In this document: positions 13,021 to 25,857 of the stretch, piece after piece | How the letters are laid out: each line of letters starts with the position of its first letter | Numbering within the stretch: position 1 is the first letter of the stretch | Assembly (NCBI GenBank): GCA_022509085.1 | Contig: JAFLTW010000002.1 | Location: forward strand, 242,455-306,454 | From: Muribaculaceae bacterium | GTDB lineage: Bacteria; Bacteroidota; Bacteroidia; Bacteroidales; Muribaculaceae | Direction: 5' to 3' | Length of the DNA stretch: 64,000 bases | The notes under the pieces: model-generated | The model's input: the letters and a program-made list of their open reading frames with translations, nothing else | What the model was told of the DNA's origin: nothing | Databases searched by the model: none | Position numbers and translations under genes: made by a program

Positions 13021-14592
13021 TTATTCAAAAGCGCCCATGCGGAGGTAGTTCACCTCTTCCTGGGTGAGGTAGCGCCAGCGGCCACGGGGAAGGTTCTTCT
13101 TGGTGAGACCGGCAAAGTAGACGCGGTCGAGTTTCACCACTCGATAGCCGAGGCTTTCGAAGATGCGGCGCACGATGCGGTTGCGGCCGCTGTGGATCTC
13201 GATGCCGGCCTGGTTGCGGTCGGTGTCGTTGACGTAGGATATGGCGTCGGCGTGGATCTCGCCGTCTTCAAGCTCGATGCCGTCGGCGATGCGCTGCATG
13301 TCTTCCTCGGCGATGTCCTTGTCGGTCCAGACATGATAGATCTTCTTCTTCACAAACTTCGGGTGTGTAAGTTTGGAGGCGAGGTCACCGTCGTTGGTGA
13401 GCAGCAGGACGCCCGTGGTGTTGCGGTCGAGACGGCCTACGGGATAGATTCTTTCACGGCAGGCGTTCTTCACGATGTCGAGCACTGTGGTGCGTCCTTT
13501 CGGGTCGGAGCTCGTGGTGACGCAGTCTTTCGGCTTGTTGAGCAGCACGTAGCACTTCCTTTCGGGAGTAACGACTTTCTCGTCGCATTCCACCACGTCG
13601 TTGCGCTTGATCTTGGTGCCGAGTTCGGTCACAACCTCACCGTTCACCTTCACTTTGCCCTGAGTGATGAATTCGTCGGCCTCGCGGCGAGAGCAGAGTC
13701 CGGCGTTTGCCATATACTTGTTGAGGCGGATTTCCTCGTTGGGGTCGATGTCTTCGAGCACGTAGTCGATCTGTTTGGGCCTCGGGGTGAACTTCATACC
13801 CTGGTTGTTGTTGCGGTTGAAGCCTCCCTTGTTGAAGCCACCCTGACGGTTGTAGCCGCCCTGGTTGTTGTAGCCACCCTGGCGGTTCTGGTTGTTGTAA
13901 CCGCCCTGACGGTTGTAACCGCCCTGGTTGTTGTAACCACCCTGACGGTTCTGGTTATATCCGCCCTGGTTGTTGTATCCACCCTGGCGGTTCTGGTTGT
14001 TATAGCCACCCTGACGGTTGTATCCGCCCTGGTTGTTGTAACCGCCCTGACGGTTCTGGTTGTAACCGCCCTGGTTGTTGTAACCGCCCTGGCGGTTCTG
14101 GTTGTTGTAGCCACCCTGACGGTTGTAGCCGCCCTGGTTGCTGTATCCTCCCTGACGGTTCTGGTTGTTATAGCCACCCTGACGGTTGTAGCCGCCCTGA
14201 CGGTTGTAGGGGCGATAGCCCTGCTGGCGGTAACCGCCCTGCTCACCGTAGTTGTTGCGGTGGTAGGAACCGGAAGGCTGGTATGGGGTCACATTGGAGT
14301 CGGCTGAGGATTCGGAGTCATCGGCCGGTTTTTCCGAAGCGGTGTTAGCGTCGTTGTACGATTGCTGGAAACGCGGCCGCGGCTGGTAGTTGCTTGAATA
14401 CCTGTTGGGGTAGGGGCGCTGTTCGGCAGAGTCGTTGTCTTCCGAGGTGCTTGCCTGGATAGGGCGCCGCGACGCATAATTGTTGTTGGGATAATTCACT
14501 TTCTCATAGCGAGTTTCAGACGCGGCATTCTCGCCGCCGGCATTTAAGGTCGAGCCTATGCGAGGCCTTTTAGGTTTCTTTTCTGATTCCAT
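13021..14592 (-). CDS. RluB/RsuA-type pseudouridine synthase with long Q/N/G/Y repeat tail
   Basis: Predicted to make pseudouridine in rRNA. The C-terminal half is standard: S4 domain (RLNKYMANAGLCSRREADEF, about 289-308), then the synthase domain with catalytic Asp in GRLDRNTTGVLLLTNDGDL and the RRIFESLGYRV motif. The first 275 residues are unusual. After a charged disordered stretch, residues about 118-260 are tandem units built from QGGYNNQ, QGGYNRQ and QNRQ in a higher-order period near 35 residues. This resembles a prion-like or RNA-binding low-complexity tail. RluB is the best guess; RluE/F-like specificity cannot be excluded. Confidence 0.88.
   Translation of the reverse strand: MESEKKPKRPRIGSTLNAGGENAASETRYEKVNYPNNNYASRRPIQASTSEDNDSAEQRPYPNRYSSNYQPRPRFQQSYNDANTASEKPADDSESSADSNVTPYQPSGSYHRNNYGEQGGYRQQGYRPYNRQGGYNRQGGYNNQNRQGGYSNQGGYNRQGGYNNQNRQGGYNNQGGYNQNRQGGYNNQGGYNRQGGYNNQNRQGGYNNQGGYNQNRQGGYNNQGGYNRQGGYNNQNRQGGYNNQGGYNRQGGFNKGGFNRNNNQGMKFTPRPKQIDYVLEDIDPNEEIRLNKYMANAGLCSRREADEFITQGKVKVNGEVVTELGTKIKRNDVVECDEKVVTPERKCYVLLNKPKDCVTTSSDPKGRTTVLDIVKNACRERIYPVGRLDRNTTGVLLLTNDGDLASKLTHPKFVKKKIYHVWTDKDIAEEDMQRIADGIELEDGEIHADAISYVNDTDRNQAGIEIHSGRNRIVRRIFESLGYRVVKLDRVYFAGLTKKNLPRGRWRYLTQEEVNYLRMGAFE
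13813..14241 (-). repeat. Tandem coding repeat (GGYN.Q units) in the pseudouridine synthase
   Basis: About 430 bp of closely related 15-21 bp units (forward strand variants of gttgttgtagccaccctg) encoding GGYNNQ, GGYNRQ and QNRQ. Units mix near-identical and synonymous copies, consistent with expansion by recombination or slippage in multiples of three. Confidence 0.9.
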
Positions 14593-14921: not shown

Positions 14922-15605
14922 TCATTTATAACCAACACGCGGGCGCGTTTGAATTGTCGTATCTCCTTCCATTTGTGCCTTAATCCTTTTATATTTCTCG
15001 ATTTCTTTGGATGTAAGGGAGGATTTAGTAGTTGCAATGGTTTCTTCTAGGATAGCCATTGTAATCTTGCTTTTAGCTCTAAGGGCTTTGCGAGAAGCAT
15101 CATTAATAATAAGTGCAAGATCTGAAAATACATAGTTTTTAGTAATTTTTGCTAATTTATCATAATCAATACCAAAGTCATAAGGCCTTTTTTTAAGAAG
15201 CATCTCAAACATAGCCTTCCGAGCATCATAATCGGGAGGAGCCACATAGAACTTTTTATCCAAACGACCGGAACGAAGAATTGCCGGATCCATAAGATGC
15301 GGATAATTGGTTGCGCCAATTATGAAAATACCCTTTTCTCCAAGTCTATCCATATTTGCAAGCATTTCATTAACGGCACTTACATACATTTCATGAATAC
15401 TTCCACTGTCACGATTTGGAGTTAACTCATTCATCTCATCTATAAAGATGATTGTTGGAGCATTTTCCTCTGCTTCCTTAAACATTGCAGCAATGTTTTC
15501 TTGCGTAGCGTTGACCCATTTACTTTGAAGATCACTTGGCTTTTTAATCAAAAAGTTAAATCCAACCTCTGCAGCAAGTTGTTTTGCAAAAAAAGTTTCC
15601 CACAA
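14922..15605 (-). CDS. AAA+ ATPase, C-terminal part of a frameshifted kinase-AAA fusion
   Basis: Carries most of an AAA (CDC48/FtsH-like) ATPase module. From about 15,592 the frame reads TFFAKQLAAEVG, the direct continuation of the Walker A that ends the upstream gene. It then has Walker B TIIFIDEMNEL, sensor 1 IIGATNYPHLMDPAILRSGR with the conserved arginines of the second region of homology, and a helical lid. The nominal 227-residue start is an artefact: without the upstream frame the P-loop is missing. Restoring one base gives a protein of about 594 residues with the kinase-like domain. Remodelling of a partner such as the adjacent Hsp70 is inferred. Confidence 0.8.
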   Translation of the reverse strand: MWETFFAKQLAAEVGFNFLIKKPSDLQSKWVNATQENIAAMFKEAEENAPTIIFIDEMNELTPNRDSGSIHEMYVSAVNEMLANMDRLGEKGIFIIGATNYPHLMDPAILRSGRLDKKFYVAPPDYDARKAMFEMLLKKRPYDFGIDYDKLAKITKNYVFSDLALIINDASRKALRAKSKITMAILEETIATTKSSLTSKEIEKYKRIKAQMEGDTTIQTRPRVGYK

Positions 15606-16705
15606 CCCGGAGGTCCATATAACAACATGCCATTCGGAACCGTCACTCCATATCGTTCATATTCTTCTCGTTGATTTATAGCATCAATTACTTCAGTAGT
15701 CACTAAATCCTTTAATTCATGCATGCCAGCAATAGCTGAGAAACCTTCTCCATCTTTAGGTTTCGCTACATTATTAGAATTATTCTTGTTCTTAGACTCA
15801 CCACTAAATTTTGCTTGACGAAATTTGTCAGGATTTTCAATTTTAAGATTCCCATCTATTGCCGATATGAACTCATCAGCTGATGAGAATCTGTTTTCTG
15901 CATCCGGCAACAAAGCCCGTTTAATGGTATTAATAAACTGTTCATCTAATTCAAAGATATCTTCATCGGGAATATACAAAGGGAGTTCACGCAATTTTGC
16001 GAGCTTCTCAAGATTTTCCTGTTGAGATTTTCTGCTAATGTCAAAAAACCAAGGTAATTTACCATACAATAGAACGTAAATACATACGCCCACTGCAAAT
16101 AAATCACTTTGTACGCATGAGACACCGGCAAAGCGTTCGGGGGCTTGATAAAAGATATTAAGGTCTTCGAGTGGTTGCTTACAATTTGCCATGTCGAGAA
16201 ACCGTGAATATCCGAAATCAATTAATTTAATGTCGTCAAGATTTTCTGTATTTAAATTTAGTATAATATTTTGGATTGTTACTTCATTATGAATAATTGG
16301 CCGTGACTGTTCATGTAGATACTTCAAAGCTGAAAGAAGGGCTTTCGATATTTTTTTAATTTCATAAACATCAAACTTTTTACCACGTTCTATGGATTCA
16401 GCCAAAGTTTCATTTGCCAAAAACTCTTTCACCAAATAAGAATACTTCTGACCGTTGATAATTATATTATCGGTTAGAATAGTTTCGTTTAAGTTGTGGT
16501 GTTTAAGGTTCTTAGAAACTTCAAACTCAATAATGTTGCCATTGTCATCAATCTGCCAACTTCTAAGTTTTGAGGTGGGCACGAGTTTTAGAAATTTCTT
16601 TTTCCCTAAAGAATCTTTGACACGATATGTCTCAGCATAACTCCCTTCTTTTATTGGAGATATAACCGTAAAGTCACCAATTTTATCTTGACGCTTAAAA
16701 AGCAT
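15548..16705 (-). CDS. Ser/Thr kinase-like domain plus start of AAA+ domain (frameshifted)
   Basis: Residues 10-290 form a eukaryotic-type kinase fold: glycine loop IKEGSYAETYRV (18-29), candidate ATP-binding Lys 40, DFG at 163-165 and APE at 188-190. The catalytic loop is aberrant: HRDxKxxN reads HNEVTIQN (139-146), with Glu for the catalytic Asp and Thr for the Lys, so activity is doubtful. A Lys/Asn-rich linker leads to the AAA module (GMHELKDLVTTEV, 327 onward), which runs to GPPGCGK (364-370) and then falls out of frame. The last 15 residues are frameshift translation. It starts 8 nt after the Hsp70 stop, so it is last in the operon. Confidence 0.8.
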   Translation of the reverse strand: MLFKRQDKIGDFTVISPIKEGSYAETYRVKDSLGKKKFLKLVPTSKLRSWQIDDNGNIIEFEVSKNLKHHNLNETILTDNIIINGQKYSYLVKEFLANETLAESIERGKKFDVYEIKKISKALLSALKYLHEQSRPIIHNEVTIQNIILNLNTENLDDIKLIDFGYSRFLDMANCKQPLEDLNIFYQAPERFAGVSCVQSDLFAVGVCIYVLLYGKLPWFFDISRKSQQENLEKLAKLRELPLYIPDEDIFELDEQFINTIKRALLPDAENRFSSADEFISAIDGNLKIENPDKFRQAKFSGESKNKNNSNNVAKPKDGEGFSAIAGMHELKDLVTTEVIDAINQREEYERYGVTVPNGMLLYGPPGCGKLFLQNNLLQRLDLTF

Positions 16706-16713
16706 AATTAAAT

Positions 16714-18378
16714 TTATTTTAGGCTGATTAATGAAGGTTTGGCATTATAACGCAGGTTATTGTTGTCAAAACACAATATCTCAAAACATTTTTCTTCCGA
16801 ATTAGTAGTCATCAATTCAATAACATCCCCCAGATGATTTAATTCTATAAAATCGCTAATCCACATCTTGTCAGAACGAATAACACAACCTGTTATATTT
16901 TTATACTTTTCTGATGTTAATCTAATCGTAATAAGATGATTATCCAATTTGTGGATTTCAAGAGGAAGAGGCTCAGAGATTAAAGAGAAATTATTCTTTA
17001 TATTTTCAATAATTTTAAGCCGAGAATGTAATTTTAAGTCTACATCATTCACCTTTATTTCATCTATAGAATCTTCAATTTTATGATGAATTTCTTTTAG
17101 ATTTTGCATGGATATTTTAGATTCAGAACTATTGACATGTTCCTGTTCGACACTTTCCAACTGTTCTTTTATTTCTGATACATCTTTCCCTTCACATTTT
17201 AATGAATTTAACCAATCCTTATTTTTTAATTCCTCGTTTACTTCATTGTCTATGGTAGAAGCATAAAGAGATGCACCAATAGCCACTGCTGTGATCGGGT
17301 CAATACTGGAATCTACATTTTCTGAAACCTGCTCTTTGAGCATTCTACGAATTAGAGGTGAATGTGTGGGACCTCCGACCAATATAATCTTGGCAAGTTG
17401 TTCTTTGGAGAGATTGTTTCTTTTGATTATATTCTTGCAAATATCTACGGCTTTTTGGAAGATAGGCTGTATCGCTTTATATAGATCCTGTTGGGTTATA
17501 AGGAGGTCTATTTCCATTTCTTCTCCGGAAGCGTCTTCTCCAAAATCGCCTGCGTCAACATAAAGACTATATTCCGTATTGAACGAAAGTTGATTCTTAA
17601 CTTCTTCAGCCCAGGTTTTTAGAGCATCTCTTAAAATCTCTTTTCTATTTTCATCCTCGAGATATTCGTCAATGTCGTAATTGCCTTGAAGATAGGGAAT
17701 CAAAATTTTATCGACGATTGCAAAATCCAAATCCTTACCTCCTAGATAGTTGACCCCTTCAGTATCAAGTACCTGAATAATGCCATCTTCAACTTTCATC
17801 AAAGCTGCATCGAAGGTGCCACCTCCAAAGTCGAAAACGAGCCAATATGCATCTTTTTGAGACGAATTTAAGCCATATGCCATAGCTGCTGCAATTGGCT
17901 CTTGAAGTAACTCTATATGATTAAAGCCGGCAAGTTTGGCAGCTTCAAGGGTTGCTGTCTTTTGGTTAACAGTGAATTTTGCAGGAACAGTTATAACAAC
18001 AGAGCGAAAATCCTCGTCGGCAATATATGATTTCAGGGCTTTTAAGACTTCTGAGGAAAGTTGTTCCGAAGAAAAAGAGTCGCCCATGTGGGTACTTTTA
18101 TAGGAAGTATTTGTTCCCATAGTTCTTTTGAACTCGATGTAAGTGTTTGCTTCTTCTTTCCTACCCTTTTTTGCGGCTTTTCGCTTATCGCTTTTCATAC
18201 TGTTGTAAGCCTGCTTGCCGACTCGTAAACTCTTGTTTTTTTGAAAGAAGACACATGATGGCATTGTGTCATCAGTCACTTCGATTTTTTTAATCGTGGG
18301 AACACCGTTTTCCATTCTTGCGATTGCAGAATTGGTGGTGCCGAGGTCTATCCCGTAATTTATTTTTAATTGAGCCAT
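16714..18378 (-). CDS. Hsp70/DnaK-family protein without a canonical substrate-binding domain
   Basis: 554 residues. The first 385 or so form a complete Hsp70 ATPase domain: phosphate 1 motif YGIDLGTTNSAIA (9-21), phosphate 2 motif FDFGGGTFDAALM, adenosine motif IILVGGPTHSPLIRRML, then AVAIGASLYA. The DnaK linker (VLLLDVTPLS type) is not visible. The remaining 160 residues are a charged helical stretch and a small beta-rich end, not a normal peptide-binding domain and lid. Downstream of a GrpE-like gene (19-nt gap) and upstream of the kinase-AAA gene (8-nt gap). A specialised partner rather than the housekeeping DnaK. Confidence 0.88.
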   Translation of the reverse strand: MAQLKINYGIDLGTTNSAIARMENGVPTIKKIEVTDDTMPSCVFFQKNKSLRVGKQAYNSMKSDKRKAAKKGRKEEANTYIEFKRTMGTNTSYKSTHMGDSFSSEQLSSEVLKALKSYIADEDFRSVVITVPAKFTVNQKTATLEAAKLAGFNHIELLQEPIAAAMAYGLNSSQKDAYWLVFDFGGGTFDAALMKVEDGIIQVLDTEGVNYLGGKDLDFAIVDKILIPYLQGNYDIDEYLEDENRKEILRDALKTWAEEVKNQLSFNTEYSLYVDAGDFGEDASGEEMEIDLLITQQDLYKAIQPIFQKAVDICKNIIKRNNLSKEQLAKIILVGGPTHSPLIRRMLKEQVSENVDSSIDPITAVAIGASLYASTIDNEVNEELKNKDWLNSLKCEGKDVSEIKEQLESVEQEHVNSSESKISMQNLKEIHHKIEDSIDEIKVNDVDLKLHSRLKIIENIKNNFSLISEPLPLEIHKLDNHLITIRLTSEKYKNITGCVIRSDKMWISDFIELNHLGDVIELMTTNSEEKCFEILCFDNNNLRYNAKPSLISLK

Positions 18379-18397
18379 ATATTATTAAGTTTTGATT

Positions 18398-19315
18398 CTA
18401 TATGTTTTGAGAGACCGTAACCGATGCTTTTTGAACCAATTGACCATTATAGTGTATTTGTGGTTTGGAAACAGATGTGATAGTCCTTGTCCCGATGGGA
18501 AGCTCTTCATCAATTTCGAAATACGCATTTATTCTCATTCCTTCGTTGTATGGTTGACCTAAATAGGTTATAATATCATAGCCATTTGCCTTGAAATTAT
18601 CTTTTATTCTATCAATAGCCTTGACCAGCGGTTTGTAACCTTTTACAGAAGAATCCATGCGAGAAAGATTCTTTTCTATGCGGGTTATCTCATCCGCTAC
18701 TTTCAGTGCAAGTGAATGGTCAATTTCTGGTGATATTGCAGAAGATACATTACCGGGTTTCTGATTCTTCTCAAGATTTACTTGTTTTTCAAGGATTTCT
18801 ATCAACTTTGTATCAAGTTTGACAGATTCTTCTTCAAGATTATTCTGAGCTGCCCTAATTGCAGAAATAGCATTTGTACTTTTAGAAATACCTTTATGAA
18901 GTATGATGTAAATAATAATAGCAAATAATAATAGGCCAACAATAGACCATAATCCCCACATCGCAAGTTTATTGTAATTAGTTTGAGATGATGACTCTAC
19001 CACTTGGATTTTCTCAGTTGCCTCAGTATGGTGAGTATTTGTTAAGGTCTTTGTTTCATTAACATCATTTTGTAATGCGTAGTCTATGGAATCACTTTTA
19101 ACTTCAAGCGAAGTTATATGTTGATTCATTAACTCTAATGATTCTTTTATTTCGGACAATTCATTATTTAATGAATTATCCGAGCCCTCGAGTTGATTGA
19201 CTTTCTGATTTAACGAAGAAAGTTCGGTGGTGACTTTATTCAAGTCAGATTCGTTAACCTCTGCAAAACAGCTAAGATTAATCACCAAGAATAATGTTAG
19301 GAACAATTTATTCAT
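18398..19315 (-). CDS. Membrane-anchored GrpE-like nucleotide exchange factor (putative)
   Basis: 305 residues. Signal-like N-terminus (1-18), long coiled coil (25-115), transmembrane helix (about 120-140), second coiled coil (150-225), then a C-terminal domain (about 235-303). The last part has the spacing of the GrpE head: G.D.I..LGQPYNEGMRINAYFE, D..LPIGT..I, then a beta strand ending GQLVQKASVTVSQ, like GrpE's G.PFDP..HEAV ... G..LRPA.V.V. Topology predicts an extracytoplasmic first coiled coil and a cytoplasmic GrpE-like head. The gene lies immediately before the Hsp70. The assignment is inference from pattern and context. Confidence 0.6.
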   Translation of the reverse strand: MNKLFLTLFLVINLSCFAEVNESDLNKVTTELSSLNQKVNQLEGSDNSLNNELSEIKESLELMNQHITSLEVKSDSIDYALQNDVNETKTLTNTHHTEATEKIQVVESSSQTNYNKLAMWGLWSIVGLLLFAIIIYIILHKGISKSTNAISAIRAAQNNLEEESVKLDTKLIEILEKQVNLEKNQKPGNVSSAISPEIDHSLALKVADEITRIEKNLSRMDSSVKGYKPLVKAIDRIKDNFKANGYDIITYLGQPYNEGMRINAYFEIDEELPIGTRTITSVSKPQIHYNGQLVQKASVTVSQNI

Positions 19316-19378
19316 AATGGGTTATCGTTTGCCAAACTGATACAAAAGTATTAAGAATTTCTTTTATAATGAAATTTA

Positions 19379-20662
19379 TCAGTCTATGTTTTTTAAGTTT
19401 TTTACCCAATGTGGTGAATGGGCATAATAATATGCTATAAATTTCTTACCCCAGTTTCGTTTATTAAGGAAATTATCTCTAAAATTTCTGAGCACTAATA
19501 CCCGGAGATGATCATAATCTCCATATAGCATAGTAGCAATATAGCACCCTTCTTTTGGCTTTTCTTCAAGTTTATATGGATGCTGTAAATCAAATTGTTT
19601 GTTGGTTAGAATATTAATCGTATTATCTAGTTTGCTTCTTAATTCTTCTGAAATTTTAAATTGTCTAAATAATACTAAAGTGGATATTCCTTGAGCAATG
19701 ACAGTTTCTTTCGAAGGGGTTTCTCTCTCAAACTTTGGTTTAATGAATAAATATTTTGATGGGAAATGTGGGAGATGAAGAGCGTTTTGTATAAGCTTTT
19801 CAACGGCATTTATAGTGGTTAGGATTAATGTGGTTGAGAGGTTATTAATAAATTCATCTTTAATTCCTAATGCGTCCGTTATTTTATCATGAAGGATCTT
19901 GCTATTTATTACAGTCTCTTTTATTCTAAAAATATTATATTCATAGTAGATGAAGTCGTCTTCATAAGGAGGCTTTCTATAAGTATGCATAGAAGATGAA
20001 GTATAAGGTCTTTTTTCTTTTAATAAGGGGTTAAAAACATTAATTCCAATACTACTATCACAGTAATGTAAAGTCCATCTCATATGAGAAATTTTTTCCC
20101 GAGACGGAGAGGACATTATATTTAAATTACCTAAACCATTAATTTCCTTAATAACTAGAGATAAGCTTCTTATTTCATTTATTAATAGATAATTAATGTT
20201 TTTGAGGATTGTTTCTAATTTGCGAACTTTCTCCTGACATCTGCCTCTTGCGACATGACCACCAGTTATTGAGAGGGCATATTTCAGAAGTGCCATGGCT
20301 TTATCAGGAGCATCGTCATCTGTGGTTTCACTAAAATATGTAATACCACATTTCAGGATTGTTTGGGCTATCCGGTCTGCCACCATCTGATATTCCATAT
20401 TTGAAACTCCCAATAATTCTTTCAAGTCGGCCAAATCCTTTTTTGTGGAGTTCATCAATTTTACTCCTGCCTTATAGTTGGCGGTTGCACCCTTTACTTC
20501 TTTGGTTTCTGAAATTGAGTTATTAATGCTATCAATTAATGGCTTTACTAACGACTTACCAACTATTCTTTTCCATTCAGCTGATGTATTAGGAGCCTTG
20601 GCTAATAGAGATATGTCTATACTATCATCTGTTTTGATTTGCTCAATTAATAAATCAATCAA
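19379..20662 (-). CDS. C-terminal part of a frameshifted J-like protein with CFI-box
   Basis: 427 residues from an internal TTG codon. The frame is open further upstream to the A7 run at 20,741-20,747, where it joins the preceding gene fragment. The first 150 residues parallel the 977-residue neighbour (MEYQMVADRIAQTILKCGITYF versus a similar ADKLALQILQNGIQYY stretch, then an RC motif). The last 60 residues are a CFI-box domain: CYIATMLYGDYDHLRVLVLR, FRDNFL, then FIAYYYAHSPHWVKNL. CFI-box domains are small C-terminal modules of unknown role. With the frame restored the protein would have about 590 residues. Confidence 0.65.
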   Translation of the reverse strand: MIDLLIEQIKTDDSIDISLLAKAPNTSAEWKRIVGKSLVKPLIDSINNSISETKEVKGATANYKAGVKLMNSTKKDLADLKELLGVSNMEYQMVADRIAQTILKCGITYFSETTDDDAPDKAMALLKYALSITGGHVARGRCQEKVRKLETILKNINYLLINEIRSLSLVIKEINGLGNLNIMSSPSREKISHMRWTLHYCDSSIGINVFNPLLKEKRPYTSSSMHTYRKPPYEDDFIYYEYNIFRIKETVINSKILHDKITDALGIKDEFINNLSTTLILTTINAVEKLIQNALHLPHFPSKYLFIKPKFERETPSKETVIAQGISTLVLFRQFKISEELRSKLDNTINILTNKQFDLQHPYKLEEKPKEGCYIATMLYGDYDHLRVLVLRNFRDNFLNKRNWGKKFIAYYYAHSPHWVKNLKNID

Positions 20663-20735
20663 TTCTGAAGACGAAAATGTAAGGGTTTCGCTTATTGAAT
20701 TGCATAACTTTGAACAATAATTTGTGCATAAATAA

Positions 20736-21146
20736 CTAGCTTTTTTTGAAAATGAATTTAAGTTGTTCTCTATTAGGGCACACCATTAAATTTAATAAAG
20801 AGGACATATTGGATGCTTTATTCCAAATATCCTTAGCAAGGGATATATCCCCGGCCTCTAAATGTTTCAAGGCGATATCATCGAATTTAGAGGAATTAAT
20901 AAACCAAAACAAGCTGTGCTTTAATTGATCAATCGGTCTTTCAATTTCCGATATAGCTTTACTAATCTCATCTTCTGTCCGAATAATCGAAGGTAAAAAC
21001 TCATTAAAATACGAGGGAAAAGAAATTTCCTTTCCCACCTTTAGAAATGCTTTTGACTTGTTAATATTAGAAAGCACTTCCTTTTTAGGCGAATTAGAGA
21101 ATACGCCTAAAATTCGATATGGATTATAGGTTATTAAACTTGTCAT
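20736..21146 (-). CDS. J-domain-like N-terminal part of the frameshifted CFI-box protein
   Basis: 136 residues, closely similar to the start of the next upstream protein: both begin MTSLIT(Y/N)NPYRILGVF. NPYRILGV matches helix I of J-domains (YxxLGV), followed by two helices rich in Lys, but the HPD tripeptide that activates Hsp70 is absent (KVGKEISF instead). The reading ends at a TAG just after FKK in an AAAAAAA run. Removing one A gives FKKASYLCTNYCSKL and continues into the CFI-box frame, as in the intact paralog. It starts 6 nt past the stop of that paralog, so the two are a tandem duplication. Confidence 0.65.
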   Translation of the reverse strand: MTSLITYNPYRILGVFSNSPKKEVLSNINKSKAFLKVGKEISFPSYFNEFLPSIIRTEDEISKAISEIERPIDQLKHSLFWFINSSKFDDIALKHLEAGDISLAKDIWNKASNMSSLLNLMVCPNREQLKFIFKKS

Positions 21147-21152
21147 TTGCTA

Positions 21153-24086
21153 TTAATGAAGGTCTTTGGTGGTTTTTGATGTTACTATATGAAATTCTAC
21201 TTCGCAAGAACCTCCCTCGAAGTATTCAGTACCTGCATAATTCTGAATATTTGAGGAAGAAGCTGAAGCGGCAACTTTATAGGAGCCATTTTTCAATTTA
21301 ACGCTTCCCCTTTCATATGGAGATAATATTAATCTCTTACTTTCAGGCCCACTGTAAAGGAGTGTGAGGGTGAAGGAGGTGTTATTGAAAACACTTATAG
21401 TAGTAGTAGAGCCATATCCGTAAGAGGTCTTATCCATTGCGGGCAACGTACCATGTTCACTCGAAAAAACATCTGCGACTTCAGAATCTATTAAAATTTT
21501 GTCAGCTTGCGCATAATGTTTCCCTTTGGGATATAATTCAATGTAACGGGAATAAGCAGCTGTTGTGTTTAGTTCCTGTGCAGTCCTCCAAGCGGAAGAT
21601 TCCGTATTCCATCGAGAGTCAGCTTTATCCTTTCTAACATCAGAGTCACGATATTCATCAGAAGGAACAGCCTCCTGATATTCTTCCCATCCAGTAAAAG
21701 AATTTGTAGCCTCAGCAATGGCATATAAAGAGTCACACATCTGAGTTATTAACTCTGACACCCTGAAGTCGTTAGCTATTGAAGGGTATTCATTCTTTAA
21801 ATTATTGAGTGCAATAGGGCCTTTAGCCCTTATAGAGTTAATGTACAATTCCGTTACCTCCTCAATGTGTGTACCCCGTGGATAACCTTTGAGATACTCT
21901 TTAAAGTTTTCTTCTGATGGATTATTGATGAACCACGAATATGCTTCTTTCTCTTTTTTTATCAAATTTTCTTGAGCTCGAATTTCTTTATTCGCTTTTA
22001 CATAATCATCCATTGAACTAGCTCCAACAAAACATGCAACAGCAATAATGGCGCCTATGATTAAAATTGCAAAATAGGTGCCCGCATCTGAACCATCTTT
22101 GAAGATGCTACTCAATCCCCCCCATGCTGCGATTGCTCCTATAACTCCTATAGTGTATAGCATATATTGGTATCCTTCGGGCCCCCAAATAATACCTATT
22201 AGTGCCAAAATGGATATAATTATGCTAAAGAATATAACCCAGCCTTTATGTATTTTTAAGAAGAAAAGCAGTTTGTTACCAATAGTTTTTGATTTCTTTT
22301 CAGCCTCTATTTTGTGTTTGCCTTTGGGGAGATGATAAAGATATTCTTTGTAGTCTGCTCGGTTTTTACAAAGAGACCAAGCCCTATTATCCAATAATGA
22401 TTGAGAATCTTTATCGGTGCATTTTTGTTGAAGTTTCCAAAGTTGGTCTAATCTAATTGAGGCATTAATCTCATCAATTAATTTCTTTCTTGCTTCTTTA
22501 CGTTTGGCCTCCTCTTTTACTCTTCGTTCCCATTCAATCTTTTCTTTTCGTTCAAATTCTTCAATTTGTTTTTGTGCAATTTGTTTATAACGAGCATTCG
22601 GATAAAGAGTCAAGTATCTAATATAATCAATTTTATTTTTACAGGATTGAAAATATTCGACTTCAGTTTGGATGGTAAAACAGCTGAATCTCAGTGTAGA
22701 GATGCCCGCTTGTCTCATGAATTCTTTAAGTTTGTTGCAATTTCCCAAATACCAAGATTTAGAATCCTCATGAAGTGGTAATTTATCTAGGCATAAAGTC
22801 GCGTCCCAGGCATCGGACAAAACTTTTTTTACTCTTGCGCGTTCAGAATATTTATATGCATGGTGTGACCTGTTAAGACTGTCTATTGCATTGTTTACAT
22901 CTCCTATGATTGAATTAAGGGCCTTTCTAACTATCTTTGTAGATATTGTTATGGCTGCAACATGTTTTAATCCACATTTTTCTTTTATATTCCCAAGATA
23001 TGGAGCACAATTAATCACTAATTCTTTTGATTTCAGTGCAGATTCAGTACCCTCATCAAATTTATTCAAAAGAGTTTCAATTGCTTTAATGTCTTCAAGT
23101 ATCTCAATAGGAGGTAATTCATTATAGGCCTTTTTGATGGTTTTATAATTATTTTCGCACCTTCTTTTTGCAAGATGTCCCACAGCTATACTTTTTGAAT
23201 ACTCAAATAAAGGCATTACAATACGTGGGGCTTCAGAATCGGATGTATGGTTGTAATATTGTATGCCATTTTGAAGTATTTGCAAAGCAAGTTTGTCTGC
23301 GATTATTGCATATTCGGTTTCCTTCTCATTGCAATTATCTTTCAAATCATTTAAAATTGGTGATGCTTGCTCTTTTAGAACTTGACCAGCTTGGAGATTC
23401 GAAGAAGCATCGTTTTTAATAGCAGAGGAGGCAACTTCAATGAGTTTATTTAATTTATCTATGTAATAGGTGCGGACAGATCTAAATATAATCCTTTGTA
23501 ATAAATGCTCTTCAATTAAAATTCCTTTCGCGGCTTTTAATATTTCCGATGGACTGTATACTTTAGAAAGTTCCTCATAATAGAGCAAGTAGATTTCGCT
23601 ATTATTGAGTTTAAGAGTTTCAAGATTTAAGGCCTCAAAAAGATGTTCCTTTCGGAATTCAATAAGTTTGGAAAATGTCAGAATTGCAGCATCCATCTTC
23701 CCTTGCAAAAGAGAAATAGTATGATAATTCAGAAGTGATGACCAGCAAGAGAACTTTTCAAATATAGAAGTGGCTTTCTGAATGTCGCCGGAGGAAAGAT
23801 GTCTAAATGCAATAGCTTCAGCGGGATTTGAACAAGCAAACCAGAAGAATGCATTTTTTAATCTTTCAATAGGAAGATTTAAAGCATTGTTTGCTTCATC
23901 TATGGTCAGCGGGGTTCTAATCGGAGATTGTTCTAAAGGAATTGAAAAATCCGCTTCGGATTCAACCGATTTGCCGATTTTAAAAAAAGCCTTAAAACGG
24001 TTTATATTTGAAGTTCTTTCTTTGAGTGGCGTATTAACAAATACGCCTAAAATTCTATATGGATTATTGGTTATTAAACTTGTCAT
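21153..24086 (-). CDS. Large membrane protein with HPD-less J-like N-terminus and YLxxYPxG repeats
   Basis: 977 residues, first gene of the operon. Residues 1-110 are the J-like module (NPYRILGVF, no HPD). Residues 110-500 are helical, partly shared with the CFI-box paralog. A Lys/Glu coiled coil lies near 520-560, and about three hydrophobic segments at 613-632, 638-660 and 669-690. A motif of the form YxxYLxxYPxGxHxxxA occurs about four times around the membrane part (for example YLTLYPNARYKQIA, YIELYPKGKHYAQA). The last 90 residues form a beta-rich domain (TTTISVFNNTSFTLTLLYSG). No known enzyme is visible. A membrane platform that recruits the Hsp70 is inferred from the J-like module and context. 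Confidence 0.75.
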   Translation of the reverse strand: MTSLITNNPYRILGVFVNTPLKERTSNINRFKAFFKIGKSVESEADFSIPLEQSPIRTPLTIDEANNALNLPIERLKNAFFWFACSNPAEAIAFRHLSSGDIQKATSIFEKFSCWSSLLNYHTISLLQGKMDAAILTFSKLIEFRKEHLFEALNLETLKLNNSEIYLLYYEELSKVYSPSEILKAAKGILIEEHLLQRIIFRSVRTYYIDKLNKLIEVASSAIKNDASSNLQAGQVLKEQASPILNDLKDNCNEKETEYAIIADKLALQILQNGIQYYNHTSDSEAPRIVMPLFEYSKSIAVGHLAKRRCENNYKTIKKAYNELPPIEILEDIKAIETLLNKFDEGTESALKSKELVINCAPYLGNIKEKCGLKHVAAITISTKIVRKALNSIIGDVNNAIDSLNRSHHAYKYSERARVKKVLSDAWDATLCLDKLPLHEDSKSWYLGNCNKLKEFMRQAGISTLRFSCFTIQTEVEYFQSCKNKIDYIRYLTLYPNARYKQIAQKQIEEFERKEKIEWERRVKEEAKRKEARKKLIDEINASIRLDQLWKLQQKCTDKDSQSLLDNRAWSLCKNRADYKEYLYHLPKGKHKIEAEKKSKTIGNKLLFFLKIHKGWVIFFSIIISILALIGIIWGPEGYQYMLYTIGVIGAIAAWGGLSSIFKDGSDAGTYFAILIIGAIIAVACFVGASSMDDYVKANKEIRAQENLIKKEKEAYSWFINNPSEENFKEYLKGYPRGTHIEEVTELYINSIRAKGPIALNNLKNEYPSIANDFRVSELITQMCDSLYAIAEATNSFTGWEEYQEAVPSDEYRDSDVRKDKADSRWNTESSAWRTAQELNTTAAYSRYIELYPKGKHYAQADKILIDSEVADVFSSEHGTLPAMDKTSYGYGSTTTISVFNNTSFTLTLLYSGPESKRLILSPYERGSVKLKNGSYKVAASASSSNIQNYAGTEYFEGGSCEVEFHIVTSKTTKDLH

Positions 24087-24177: not shown

Positions 24178-25857
24178 TTAGGCTTGGTTGACAGAAATGT
24201 ATTTTTGATTACTACTTGTAGGTTTATCCGGTATTGTCATGACAATTTTACCATCTTTCAATAAGAAGTCAAGATATCTTGCTTTGACTCTTTTAAATGC
24301 TTTGACTCCAAGGAATTCGGCTATTTCTTTGAGACTTCTCGGTTCAGAGCAAAATTCAATGATTCTATCGCATACAATGCGTGTCCCCTCAGTCATTCTT
24401 CTTTGACTTGGTACACCCTGACTTGGTACACCCTGACTTGGTACACCCTGACTTGGTACACCCTGACTTGGTACACCTTGACTTGGTACACCTTGACTTG
24501 GTACACCCTGACTTGGTACACCCTGACTTGGTACACCCTGACTTGGTACACCTTGACTTGGTACACCTTGACTTGGTACACCCTGACTTGGTACACCTTG
24601 ACTTGGTACACCCTGACTTAGTACACCCCGACTTGCTCCCTTTAATTTAGATCCTTTTACTTTACTCTTTTTACGGTTGAATATAGTAACCTCAAATGCC
24701 GTAAGGTTGTCGACATTGAATACAGCCGGCTCATTCCCATTTTCTAGTAGCTGCTTTTGCACTTCACTCACACCGCGATTAAACATATTTACATATCCAA
24801 GAGTCTTGAAGGCAGAGGCTAATAATGGGTTGCGATAGTCATTTACATTAGGGAAGTTTTCAGGCCGGGCGTTTCCAAACAATCCGCCGGGATTCATAAT
24901 TTCTACCCTATTTTCAAATTCATAAATTCTTATCGGCCCATTACCTTGCATGTCCCTATGTAGCAGTGCATTAAGAAGTAATTCCCTCAGAGCCCAGTAG
25001 GGATAATTTACAATTAATTCCTCTCTTAATAAGCTAACCGGAATGGGTTTCTTTTTTACAACTGACATCTCAAGGAAAGCCTCTAAATGAGGTAGCATCT
25101 CCACATATCCTCCCTCAAATTGGCGTTCATCCTCTACTTCGGAAGTCTTATCTTTTCCTTTAAACCTTACAAACTGTACATAAAGTCCAGGCATAAATTT
25201 TCTAGGATTGAAGCCAAATAATGCTACGGCGCCAAACGTAGGTCTATCATGTTCTAAGTCATATAGCCCCAGAGCCCCCATTTGTTCCACCGGTGTTCGC
25301 TTGTCCTTTTTCCTTACTATTGCCGGTATAGCCCTTTGGAGGTAGATATCTTTAAAAGCCTTTAAGTTAATGTCTTTTAAAGAGGCTTGAAAACAAGGGG
25401 TGGTGTCGAAAGTTGGCATGTAAGCAATCCTCCGTTCAGTAAGTATGCGCTCTTCTGCTTCTGAAGCTATATCGCGTCGAGGTCCAATTCTTATAAATGT
25501 TCTTCCCCGATAACGTACCGGCGGAAAGAGAGATGGTTGTACCTCCACCACCAATACATCTCCATCTTCAAACTCATAAGTTTCTGTGGTCATGGTTGGA
25601 AGAGGTAAAATATTACCTGAAGAGCGGATTGAGCTAATTTTTATAAACAACTTATCATCAACTTTAAGACCCGATAAGTCTCCGTTGTCTTTTACACCGA
25701 TTAATAAATACCCGGGTTTACGGCTGTTGGCCATGTCATTGGAGAAAGCACATATAGTTTCCTGGAATTTGTCCATATCTCCTGTGGAAGTAGTGCGTTC
25801 AACACGAGAGGTTTCCTTATCGTATCTAAGACGTAAAATATCTTTTCTGGTAAGCAT
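24178..25857 (-). CDS. AlbA_2/Schlafen-type ATP-binding transcriptional regulator-like protein
   Basis: 559 residues. The N-terminus (1-160) is an AlbA_2 (Schlafen-like) domain: ETICAFSNDMANSRKPGYLL, GVKDNGDL and TFIRIGPRRDIAS. The middle is a GHKL-like HATPase_c_4 domain (LRELLLNALLHRDMQGNG, VEIMNPGGLFG), as in the family often misnamed RecG-like. Residues about 410-484 are fifteen pentapeptides, fourteen GVPSQ and one GVLSQ. After them comes a winged-helix-like end (IIEFCSEPRSLKEIAEFLGV). A DNA- or RNA-binding regulator is likely; the substrate is unknown. It lies 91 nt upstream of, or may ... be separate from, the chaperone-like operon, in the opposite order to a usual regulator: it is downstream-facing on the same strand. 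Confidence 0.82.
   Translation of the reverse strand: MLTRKDILRLRYDKETSRVERTTSTGDMDKFQETICAFSNDMANSRKPGYLLIGVKDNGDLSGLKVDDKLFIKISSIRSSGNILPLPTMTTETYEFEDGDVLVVEVQPSLFPPVRYRGRTFIRIGPRRDIASEAEERILTERRIAYMPTFDTTPCFQASLKDINLKAFKDIYLQRAIPAIVRKKDKRTPVEQMGALGLYDLEHDRPTFGAVALFGFNPRKFMPGLYVQFVRFKGKDKTSEVEDERQFEGGYVEMLPHLEAFLEMSVVKKKPIPVSLLREELIVNYPYWALRELLLNALLHRDMQGNGPIRIYEFENRVEIMNPGGLFGNARPENFPNVNDYRNPLLASAFKTLGYVNMFNRGVSEVQKQLLENGNEPAVFNVDNLTAFEVTIFNRKKSKVKGSKLKGASRGVLSQGVPSQGVPSQGVPSQGVPSQGVPSQGVPSQGVPSQGVPSQGVPSQGVPSQGVPSQGVPSQGVPSQGVPSQRRMTEGTRIVCDRIIEFCSEPRSLKEIAEFLGVKAFKRVKARYLDFLLKDGKIVMTIPDKPTSSNQKYISVNQA
24406..24630 (-). repeat. 15 tandem copies of a 15-bp unit (GVPSQ-coding)
   Basis: Fifteen contiguous units of acttggtacaccctg type. 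In forward order the fourth-base variants run ccctg x4, ccttg x2, ccctg x3, ccttg x2, ccctg, ccttg, ccctg, then a divergent acttagtacaccccg. The variants are synonymous (CAG/CAA Gln), and the blocks suggest segmental duplication. Unit length is a multiple of three, so copy-number change would alter linker length without breaking the frame. Confidence 0.97.

Follow-up and report, generated by a model that had tools for sequence, protein, structure and literature searches.

A conserved accessory operon of Bacteroidota encodes a putative membrane-tethered Hsp70 cycle with a Cdc48-like AAA+ protein

Results

A conserved chaperone-like module of Bacteroidota

Positions 14922–24086 of a 64,000-nucleotide stretch of a Muribaculaceae genome (GCA_022509085.1, contig JAFLTW010000002.1; the whole stretch is termed the window) carry a minus-strand operon for two J-like proteins, a GrpE-like protein, an Hsp70 and a protein joining a kinase-like domain to an AAA+ domain. 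This gene set is a conserved accessory module of Bacteroidota, with a linkage beyond chance. We interpret the operon as a private, membrane-tethered Hsp70 cycle combined with a Cdc48-like AAA+ motor and, at slightly better than even confidence, as most likely a putative surveillance or anti-phage module. The remodelling-machine part of this interpretation is well supported; the defence part, which is putative, is moderately supported.

A first-pass annotation had described five adjacent minus-strand genes with gaps of 6–73 nt, including a split J-like gene, in an AT-rich island. The open reading frames (ORFs) are indeed arranged in this way: the gaps from the first J-like gene (J1) to the kinase-like ORF are 6, 73, 63, 19 and 8 nt, and the kinase-like ORF overlaps the AAA+ ORF. 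The GC content of the operon is 32–37% (2-kb windows wholly inside) as compared to mostly 52–62% elsewhere in the window. Canonical grpE, dnaJ and dnaK genes are located elsewhere in the host genome (i.e. a 2.41-Mb draft of 36 contigs), and the operon is therefore a second chaperone set. The proposal of a specialised chaperone-like system was upheld in that this second set is conserved, with TerB as a further frequent member that is absent from the window.

Conserved linkage had been set beforehand as the test of that proposal. A scan of 84,980 species genomes with one peptide pattern taken from the alignment yielded 75 loci, a lower bound; six of these are records already used in building the query. 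Genes for J-like, GrpE-like, Hsp70 and AAA+ proteins occurred in the same order and on the same strand in 55 of the 55 loci with all four, and TerB lay directly after AAA+ in 44 of the 44 loci with both. Across all 75 loci, Hsp70 was directly downstream of the GrpE-like gene on the same strand in 68, a J-like gene was directly upstream in 61, the kinase-like/AAA+ gene was within the locus in 60 (one, L106, being a weak match) and TerB was present in 45. In seven loci no Hsp70 was called directly downstream. Four of these are truncated by contig ends (L103, L109, L114 and L115), the GrpE-like frame itself was not called in L106, and L080 and L113 are real exceptions. Locus titles placed 72 of the 75 in Bacteroidota, the other three being labelled Clostridia, Nitrosomonadaceae and Paraglaciecola.

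In a reverse search, the kinase-like/AAA+ protein of L062 was compared with 395 genomes from the phylum (cut-off E ≤ 1e-70; three candidates scored per genome). It matched in six, including the window genome, and all six matches (6/6) were beside this Hsp70; in one (G509) the contig ends directly after this Hsp70. Protein trees of the five families correlated in all ten pairs (r 0.43–0.88) with 0/200 label shuffles as high, a correlation that could be explained in part by shared species history alone. A broad profile search (alignment A1) matched 72 of 296 phylum genomes at E ≤ 0.001 and only five, the window's own included, below 1e-30; most of the other matches spanned only the N-terminal coiled-coil part and were left out of the member count.

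Within the order, the GrpE-like protein was present in 11 of 295 genomes and the operon in seven, i.e. the window's own and six others (L031–L036, of which L036 is cut by a contig end). Within the genus, this Hsp70 was present in 8 of 101 genomes (4/42 among those near-complete). The seven other same-genus copies have open Hsp70 frames of 830–844 aa, and one same-genus operon (L179) is in open frames throughout, TerB included.

Public annotation of one copy (L226; NC_015512.1 1–29507) names the GrpE-like protein 'septum formation initiator' and the J-like protein 'CFI-box-CTERM', so that the operon is easily missed by annotation. No paper on this operon was found among the top matches listed from the open-access literature, which is no proof of its being unpublished as subscription papers lie mostly outside that literature.

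A GrpE-type fold on a transmembrane protein

The protein proposed as a membrane-anchored GrpE analogue (18398–19315, minus strand; 305 aa) consists of a signal-peptide-like start, a long coiled coil, a transmembrane (TM) segment at residues 121–139 (~18899–18955) and a head at residues 201–305 (~18398–18715). Fold comparison and predicted topology both support the proposal. A template-free AlphaFold model from 52 sequences (pLDDT 87.4, pTM 0.49) was searched against the PDB with Foldseek; the first 13 rows were all GrpE or GrpEL1 chains, with lengths of 130–187 and a best E of 9.2e-6, and all 11 of the 146 matches at E ≤ 0.001 were GrpE/GrpEL1 entries. Among 67 GrpE-like proteins 280 aa or longer, an early hydrophobic segment was present in 66 and a mid-protein TM segment also in 66. 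Lysine and arginine were richer on the C-terminal side of the TM segment in 63 of 66 and equal in three; from this bias, the coiled coil is predicted to lie on the periplasmic side and the GrpE head on the cytoplasmic side.

Several results count against the GrpE assignment and hence against our interpretation of the operon. The TM-scores by target were low (0.32–0.48, with the pTM of 0.49), because the long helices bend differently. The PF01025 match on the window protein, though covering positions 9–165 of 165, had an E of 0.013, and that on one relative an E of 0.029, both under the cut-off. An hhalign comparison of the GrpE-like alignment with 17 canonical GrpE proteins was not significant, and with the head alone the register was right, but 4 of 40 column shuffles scored above its best value of 17.4 (up to 19.4). 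The GrpE identity is thus supported by predicted fold, the fold search being its main support and the sequence tests weak.

Related heads were also observed outside the standard operon. In a variant (L085–L088 and L090), a 171-aa membrane GrpE-like protein accompanies an 834-aa Hsp70, and the stretch examined contained no kinase-like/AAA+ gene; a 393-aa protein is next in four of the five, and in L086 this protein is AIR-synthase-like. A TM segment also precedes the head in five short versions of 171 aa. More distant GrpE-like proteins of 392–427 aa (L037–L040) had no Hsp70 or J match nearby. Three of these (L037–L039) match the C-terminal GrpE-like region and L040 weakly matches the N-terminal part, while L038 and L039 have neighbours of similar sizes in common; a second family may use the GrpE-like head.

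One viral contig (L256:5417–12853; IMGVR_UViG_3300011008_000023) encodes a 2478-aa phage protein with one GrpE-like head at residues 1529–1599 (105.6 bits, 1.8e-34). It is a single case among viral contigs, and no Hsp70, J or AAA+ match was present in the 20 kb examined. A repeat search with this viral head recovered only itself in viral contigs and nothing in phage records, and the GrpE-like relative L047 had no match in 50,697 phage records. The L256 head is possibly a mimic or hijacker of the exchange factor.

An Hsp70 with an intact ATPase site and an apparently distinct C-terminal part

The first-pass annotation also described an Hsp70 with no classical substrate-binding domain. The assignment to Hsp70 stood (16714–18378, minus strand; 554 aa; PF00012 1.9e-67). 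The window copy is short, its nucleotide-binding domain (~17230–18378) being followed by a shortened and rearranged C-terminus. In the wider family this C-terminal part is long, and uncut single-frame Hsp70s of relatives measure 826–878 aa. In two scanned relatives the Pfam HSP70 match extended to residues 407 and 382; when 40 sequences of the C-terminal part were combined into a profile, the 42 PDB sequences that it matched at E ≤ 10 included no Hsp70. Hsp70 is split into two frames in L043 (L043:8271–10767) and L107 (L107:10921–13464), one locus (L097) contains an additional 692-aa copy, and the Hsp70 genes of L061, L073 and L105 are cut by contig ends.

The ATPase residues are kept in the family, namely K70 in 72/73, the E171 site in 73/73, DxGGGTFD in 72–73/73 and the DLGTT Asp in 71/73. 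At the interdomain linker, which reads VLLLDV in the genome's own DnaK, the operon Hsp70s mostly have alternating hydrophobic and polar residues.

J-like proteins without HPD

J1, the large J-like protein (21153–24086 in the ORF list, minus strand; 977 aa), has hydrophobic segments at residues 615–633 and 672–690, followed by a C-terminal part with YPxGKH-type repeats (by eye) and a beta-rich end. It shares 36% identity over nearly its full length with J1 of L092. The split second gene (J2) consists of an N-terminal piece with the J-like domain (20736–21146, minus strand) and a C-terminal piece (19379–20662, minus strand), whose residues 373–424 (~19391–19546) form the CFI-box C-terminal domain that had been pointed out in this protein (NF041770, 4.5e-17).

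The description of J1 as HPD-less applies to the whole family, with HPD in 0 of 74 J proteins, and in the window genome PF00226 at E ≤ 10 matched nothing but the canonical dnaJ. When a profile of the N-terminus (A9; first 88 residues, 45 of 76 N-termini) was compared with PDB sequences, the top five were all J-domain proteins (E 0.037, 0.31, 0.31, 0.34 and 0.56). None of these is significant alone, and the weight lies in their agreement; J-domain proteins made up 7 of the 12 PDB sequences listed, with the alignment over the region of helices I and II. The best match, named mKIAA0962, is a J-domain protein. The remainder of the protein is made of helical repeats, and a whole 505-aa model had helical-repeat proteins instead of a J domain among the matches listed by Foldseek and VIA-align. 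In the fold check proposed for the J-like and GrpE-like proteins, the GrpE-like model matched GrpE first. We read the J-like N-terminus as weakly but specifically J-like, probably a J-derived domain in which the usual Hsp70 trigger has been lost.

A kinase-like domain fused to a Cdc48-like AAA+ domain

In the window, the last gene of the set is divided between an ORF for the kinase-like domain and the start of AAA+ up to Walker A (15548–16705, minus strand; PF00069 3.5e-29) and an ORF for the remaining, Cdc48/p97-like AAA+ domain with the AAA lid (14922–15605, minus strand; PF00004 4.3e-26 and PF17862 2.6e-7). The predicted fusion of the two domains was confirmed, with the first qualified to kinase-like, as the catalytic Asp is lost in 36 of 59 relatives. 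The HRD motif retains its Asp in 23 of these; Glu takes its place in 28 and other residues in eight, and the catalytic Lys is a Thr in 48/59; the window protein has HNE for HRD, with Glu and Thr at the catalytic Asp and Lys positions. The beta3 Lys is kept in 57/59 and the DFG Asp in 51/59. From these residues we infer an ATP-binding pseudokinase in most members; with beta3 Lys and DFG Asp kept, some members could be active kinases.

All AAA+ motifs are kept in 59 of 59 relatives (i.e. Walker A GK[TS], Walker B DE, sensor-1 N, Arg-finger GR and a Y/F/W pore residue), two further matches (L106 and one in L108) having been dropped from this count. The closest solved relatives of the AAA+ domain are VCP/Cdc48 chains (E 1.8e-83 for the unbroken relative L042). 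The nearest PADLOC models were mad6 and PD-T4-6 for the kinase and IetA for AAA+; these matches may reflect general kinase and AAA+ resemblance.

TerB and variable small genes

TerB assignments were near threshold (E 3.7e-6, 0.00045, 0.059 and 0.02 in the four proteins scanned, one over the curated cut-off), and the copy on plasmid pHALHY02 carries the annotation TerB family. In Ter systems, TerB is a proposed sensor that binds ligands, and a role in superinfection exclusion has been suggested (PMC7824862). Between Hsp70 and AAA+, the loci examined contained 41 variable small proteins in 16 clusters; by eye, many of them have a signal peptide or membrane segments. Those of L041 and L068 match J1 (4e-8 and 8e-6) and share J1 repeats or its beta-rich end by eye.

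The window copy is atypical

As a representative of the family, the window copy is poor: it has frame breaks, its Hsp70 tail is rearranged and TerB gave no match at 1e-3. Functional conclusions were consequently based on relatives with open frames. One break lies in J2, which is one gene in most relatives, and the other in the kinase-AAA+ gene at the Walker A motif. Each coincides with a 7-nt homopolymer: an A7 run at ~20741–20747, where two frames overlap, and a T7 run at ~15588–15594. In the Hsp70 tail, a stretch like family residues 633–717 precedes one like 404–484 (E 4e-7 to 1e-5), and because of this swapped order the protein looks rearranged and not merely cut.

The window copy is thus reduced; it may be decaying, or two of its lesions may be sequence errors. 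That it is a decaying remnant without present function, which is compatible with any reading of the intact family, we rate as evenly balanced. The two breaks, the short rearranged tail and the missing TerB speak for decay, but homopolymers are where sequencing or assembly errors are common, J1, the GrpE-like gene and the ATPase domain of Hsp70 have conserved, open frames, and split Hsp70 genes occur in other records too (L043 and L107).

A programmed frameshift in the kinase-AAA+ gene, whose ORFs overlap at the T7 run, was considered and is not favoured as the normal state because nearly all relatives have one open frame, mostly of 556–615 aa, and because a slip at T7 would, as reasoned from the sequence, lose the Walker A threonine.

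A gene for a Schlafen/AlbA_2 protein with a long run of VPSQG-type pentapeptide repeats (24178–25857, minus strand) adjoins the operon. On the other side, at 13021–14592 (minus strand), is a gene with a GGYN-rich repeat N-terminus which we take to be rluB-like. Ten rluB regions were fetched and two (L221 and L225) excluded as too short; the upstream side of the gene varies among the eight same-genus regions annotated, which suggests an integration hot spot. No clean empty site beside rluB was found, and no neighbours in the eight regions match the right-hand genes of the window.

Genomic setting and the defence reading

The first-pass annotation had left the role of the operon open between stress, envelope surveillance and defence; the genomic setting leans to a putative role in surveillance or defence. 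At one locus (L084/L248/L249) the operon is inside a BREX operon, on the same strand, between brxA-brxB-brxC and pglX-pglZ-brxL. On plasmid pHALHY02 an open-frame operon adjoins BREX genes, downstream of SIR2 and WD40 genes. GajA and GajB (Gabija) are shortly downstream of TerB in L060, a type I methyltransferase is the second gene after TerB in L250, and a DpdF-like helicase and a PDC-M16B protein are upstream in L061 and L059, respectively. PADLOC families at 1e-10 numbered 187 from a random 110 of 371 flank proteins and 59 from a random 108 of 192 control proteins, the controls being 18 regions on operon-bearing contigs (one at ~10 kb distance from the operon, two at ~22 kb and the others at least 28 kb away). 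The patchy presence within the genus also counts for the defence reading.

Other observations weigh on the opposite side. The PADLOC contrast counts overlapping families, not proteins, and its controls come from eight genomes, making it suggestive only. Fourteen large flank proteins, chosen for size and read singly, gave four strong matches (BrxC, GajA, DpdF-like and PDC-M16B), two partial or weak and eight none; among the four strong matches only BrxC and GajA are specific, as DpdF-type models also match a control protein (1.4e-133) and are hence unspecific, and the PDC families are candidates only. BREX genes were present at 1 of 82 loci within the flanks examined, and one BrxC model matched in 3 of 60 operon genomes, in one of the three on the operon's contig. 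AAA+ is missing from 15 of 75 loci, some of them cut by contig ends, and no toxin or nuclease was recognisable as a regular module member as far as scanned. A general partnership with BREX was rejected because of the 1/82 and 3/60 counts; other BrxC subtypes could escape the one BrxC model used.

The main rival is a role in envelope proteostasis or stress, in which the machine would repair or extract damaged inner-membrane or periplasmic proteins and the proximity to defence genes would reflect shared islands. The membrane-tethered GrpE-like head with its periplasm-facing coiled coil, the two strong hydrophobic segments of window J1, the TerB gene downstream and several slot proteins that by eye appear to be secreted or membrane-bound, two of which match J1 (L041, 4e-8; L068, 8e-6), are all in keeping with such a role. 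A housekeeping stress system would, however, hardly be expected inside a BREX operon, and the distribution is patchy (8/101 in one genus; GrpE-like protein in 11/295 genomes of the order, four of them without the operon). We regard this explanation as tentative, with clearly less than even probability.

A role in conflict with mobile elements other than phages, or with DNA entering the cell (i.e. plasmids or conjugation), in which the membrane-tethered cycle would sense entry, appears improbable. Island placement, low GC, the pHALHY02 copy and the BREX embedding are consistent with it, but none of the core proteins was recognised as a nuclease or DNA-binding component, and a GrpE-like match at 1e-5 was found in just 1 of 72,556 plasmid records.

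Discussion

Comparison with known chaperone and defence systems

Gene set, gene order, GrpE-type fold and motifs were computed directly and place the operon beside several known systems. As in the DnaK-DnaJ-GrpE cycle, there is an Hsp70 ATPase domain with catalytic residues, a GrpE fold and a weakly J-like N-terminus. Unlike that cycle, the GrpE-like protein is transmembrane, the J proteins are without HPD, the C-terminal part of Hsp70 has no detected relation to the classical substrate-binding domain, and a kinase-like/AAA+ protein, often with TerB, is included. The ClpB-DnaK bichaperone also pairs Hsp70 with an AAA+ threading motor, but ClpB has two AAA+ rings and no kinase-like part, whereas the operon protein has one Cdc48/p97-like AAA+ domain and a kinase-like part. 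DjlA, a membrane J-protein that carries a TerB-like domain, is another case in which TerB and Hsp70 co-chaperones are connected at the membrane; in the operon, by contrast, TerB is a separate gene and the J-like proteins have no HPD.

Pfam scans of eight window proteins revealed no GTPase with an FNIII protein, no McrB-type GTPase, and neither the TerY vWA nor the PP2C domain of TerY-P triads. The operon further differs from these triads in that its frequent partner is TerB (45/75 loci), not TerY.

For conflict systems, thresholds set by chaperones have been proposed, among them HSP70-GrpE-DnaJ sets of GAP1-N2 GTPase systems (Kaur et al. 2020, PMC7159879). The likeness extends to HSP70, GrpE, a DnaJ- or TPR-bearing protein, a membrane-near setting and the proposed thresholding of conflict responses; in GAP1-N2 systems GTPases and FNIII proteins are central and the HSP70 theme is mainly of actinobacteria and firmicutes, while the partner here is a kinase-like/Cdc48-type AAA+ protein in Bacteroidota. 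CoCoNuTs (PMC11090510) are a further defence family with Hsp70-like domains. These type IV restriction systems resemble the operon in having such domains in a defence operon, often near type I RM, BREX or a TerY-P kinase; they are built on McrB GTPases and RNases, and their Hsp70-like domains have degenerate Walker A-like motifs, whereas the operon Hsp70 keeps its ATPase residues. The bNACHT25 defence requires host DnaJ and senses phage through it, so that a chaperone cycle takes part in phage sensing, although with host DnaJ/K and not a private set (PMC12169576). Myxococcus xanthus DnaK2 is encoded together with a dedicated GrpE (PMC11019930), likewise a private exchange factor with a second Hsp70 but a simpler operon of two genes only.

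A proposed mechanism

The combined features allow a working scheme. The J-like/helical-repeat proteins would select a client or partner and deliver it to Hsp70; with HPD missing, the usual triggering of ATP hydrolysis would presumably not occur. The client might then be clamped by Hsp70, whose ATPase site is intact and whose C-terminal part is apparently new. The exchange factor in the inner membrane, with its GrpE fold and predicted topology of coiled coil outside and head inside, would time Hsp70 release, and an envelope event could thereby be convertible into client release. The kinase-like/AAA+ protein would unfold or thread the client, its kinase-like part acting mainly as an ATP- or partner-binding domain. 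TerB and the variable small proteins may tune the machine to the local trigger or target.

A more specific version of the scheme, which we consider rather unlikely, is a self-contained immune chaperone, in which an envelope event during phage infection would flip Hsp70 and pass the client to the Cdc48-like motor, and the head of phage L256 would be a decoy or hijacking tool.

If the proposed scheme is true, the operon would provide an Hsp70 cycle with a transmembrane, receptor-like exchange factor, and a whole chaperone triad, not a single co-chaperone, would have been recruited to surveillance. It also offers testable functions for CFI-box, TerB and HPD-less J proteins, whose annotation names no role in this setting. 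The operon further makes testable a general question, i.e. whether a bacterial immune or envelope-alarm system may use a chaperone cycle as its threshold switch.

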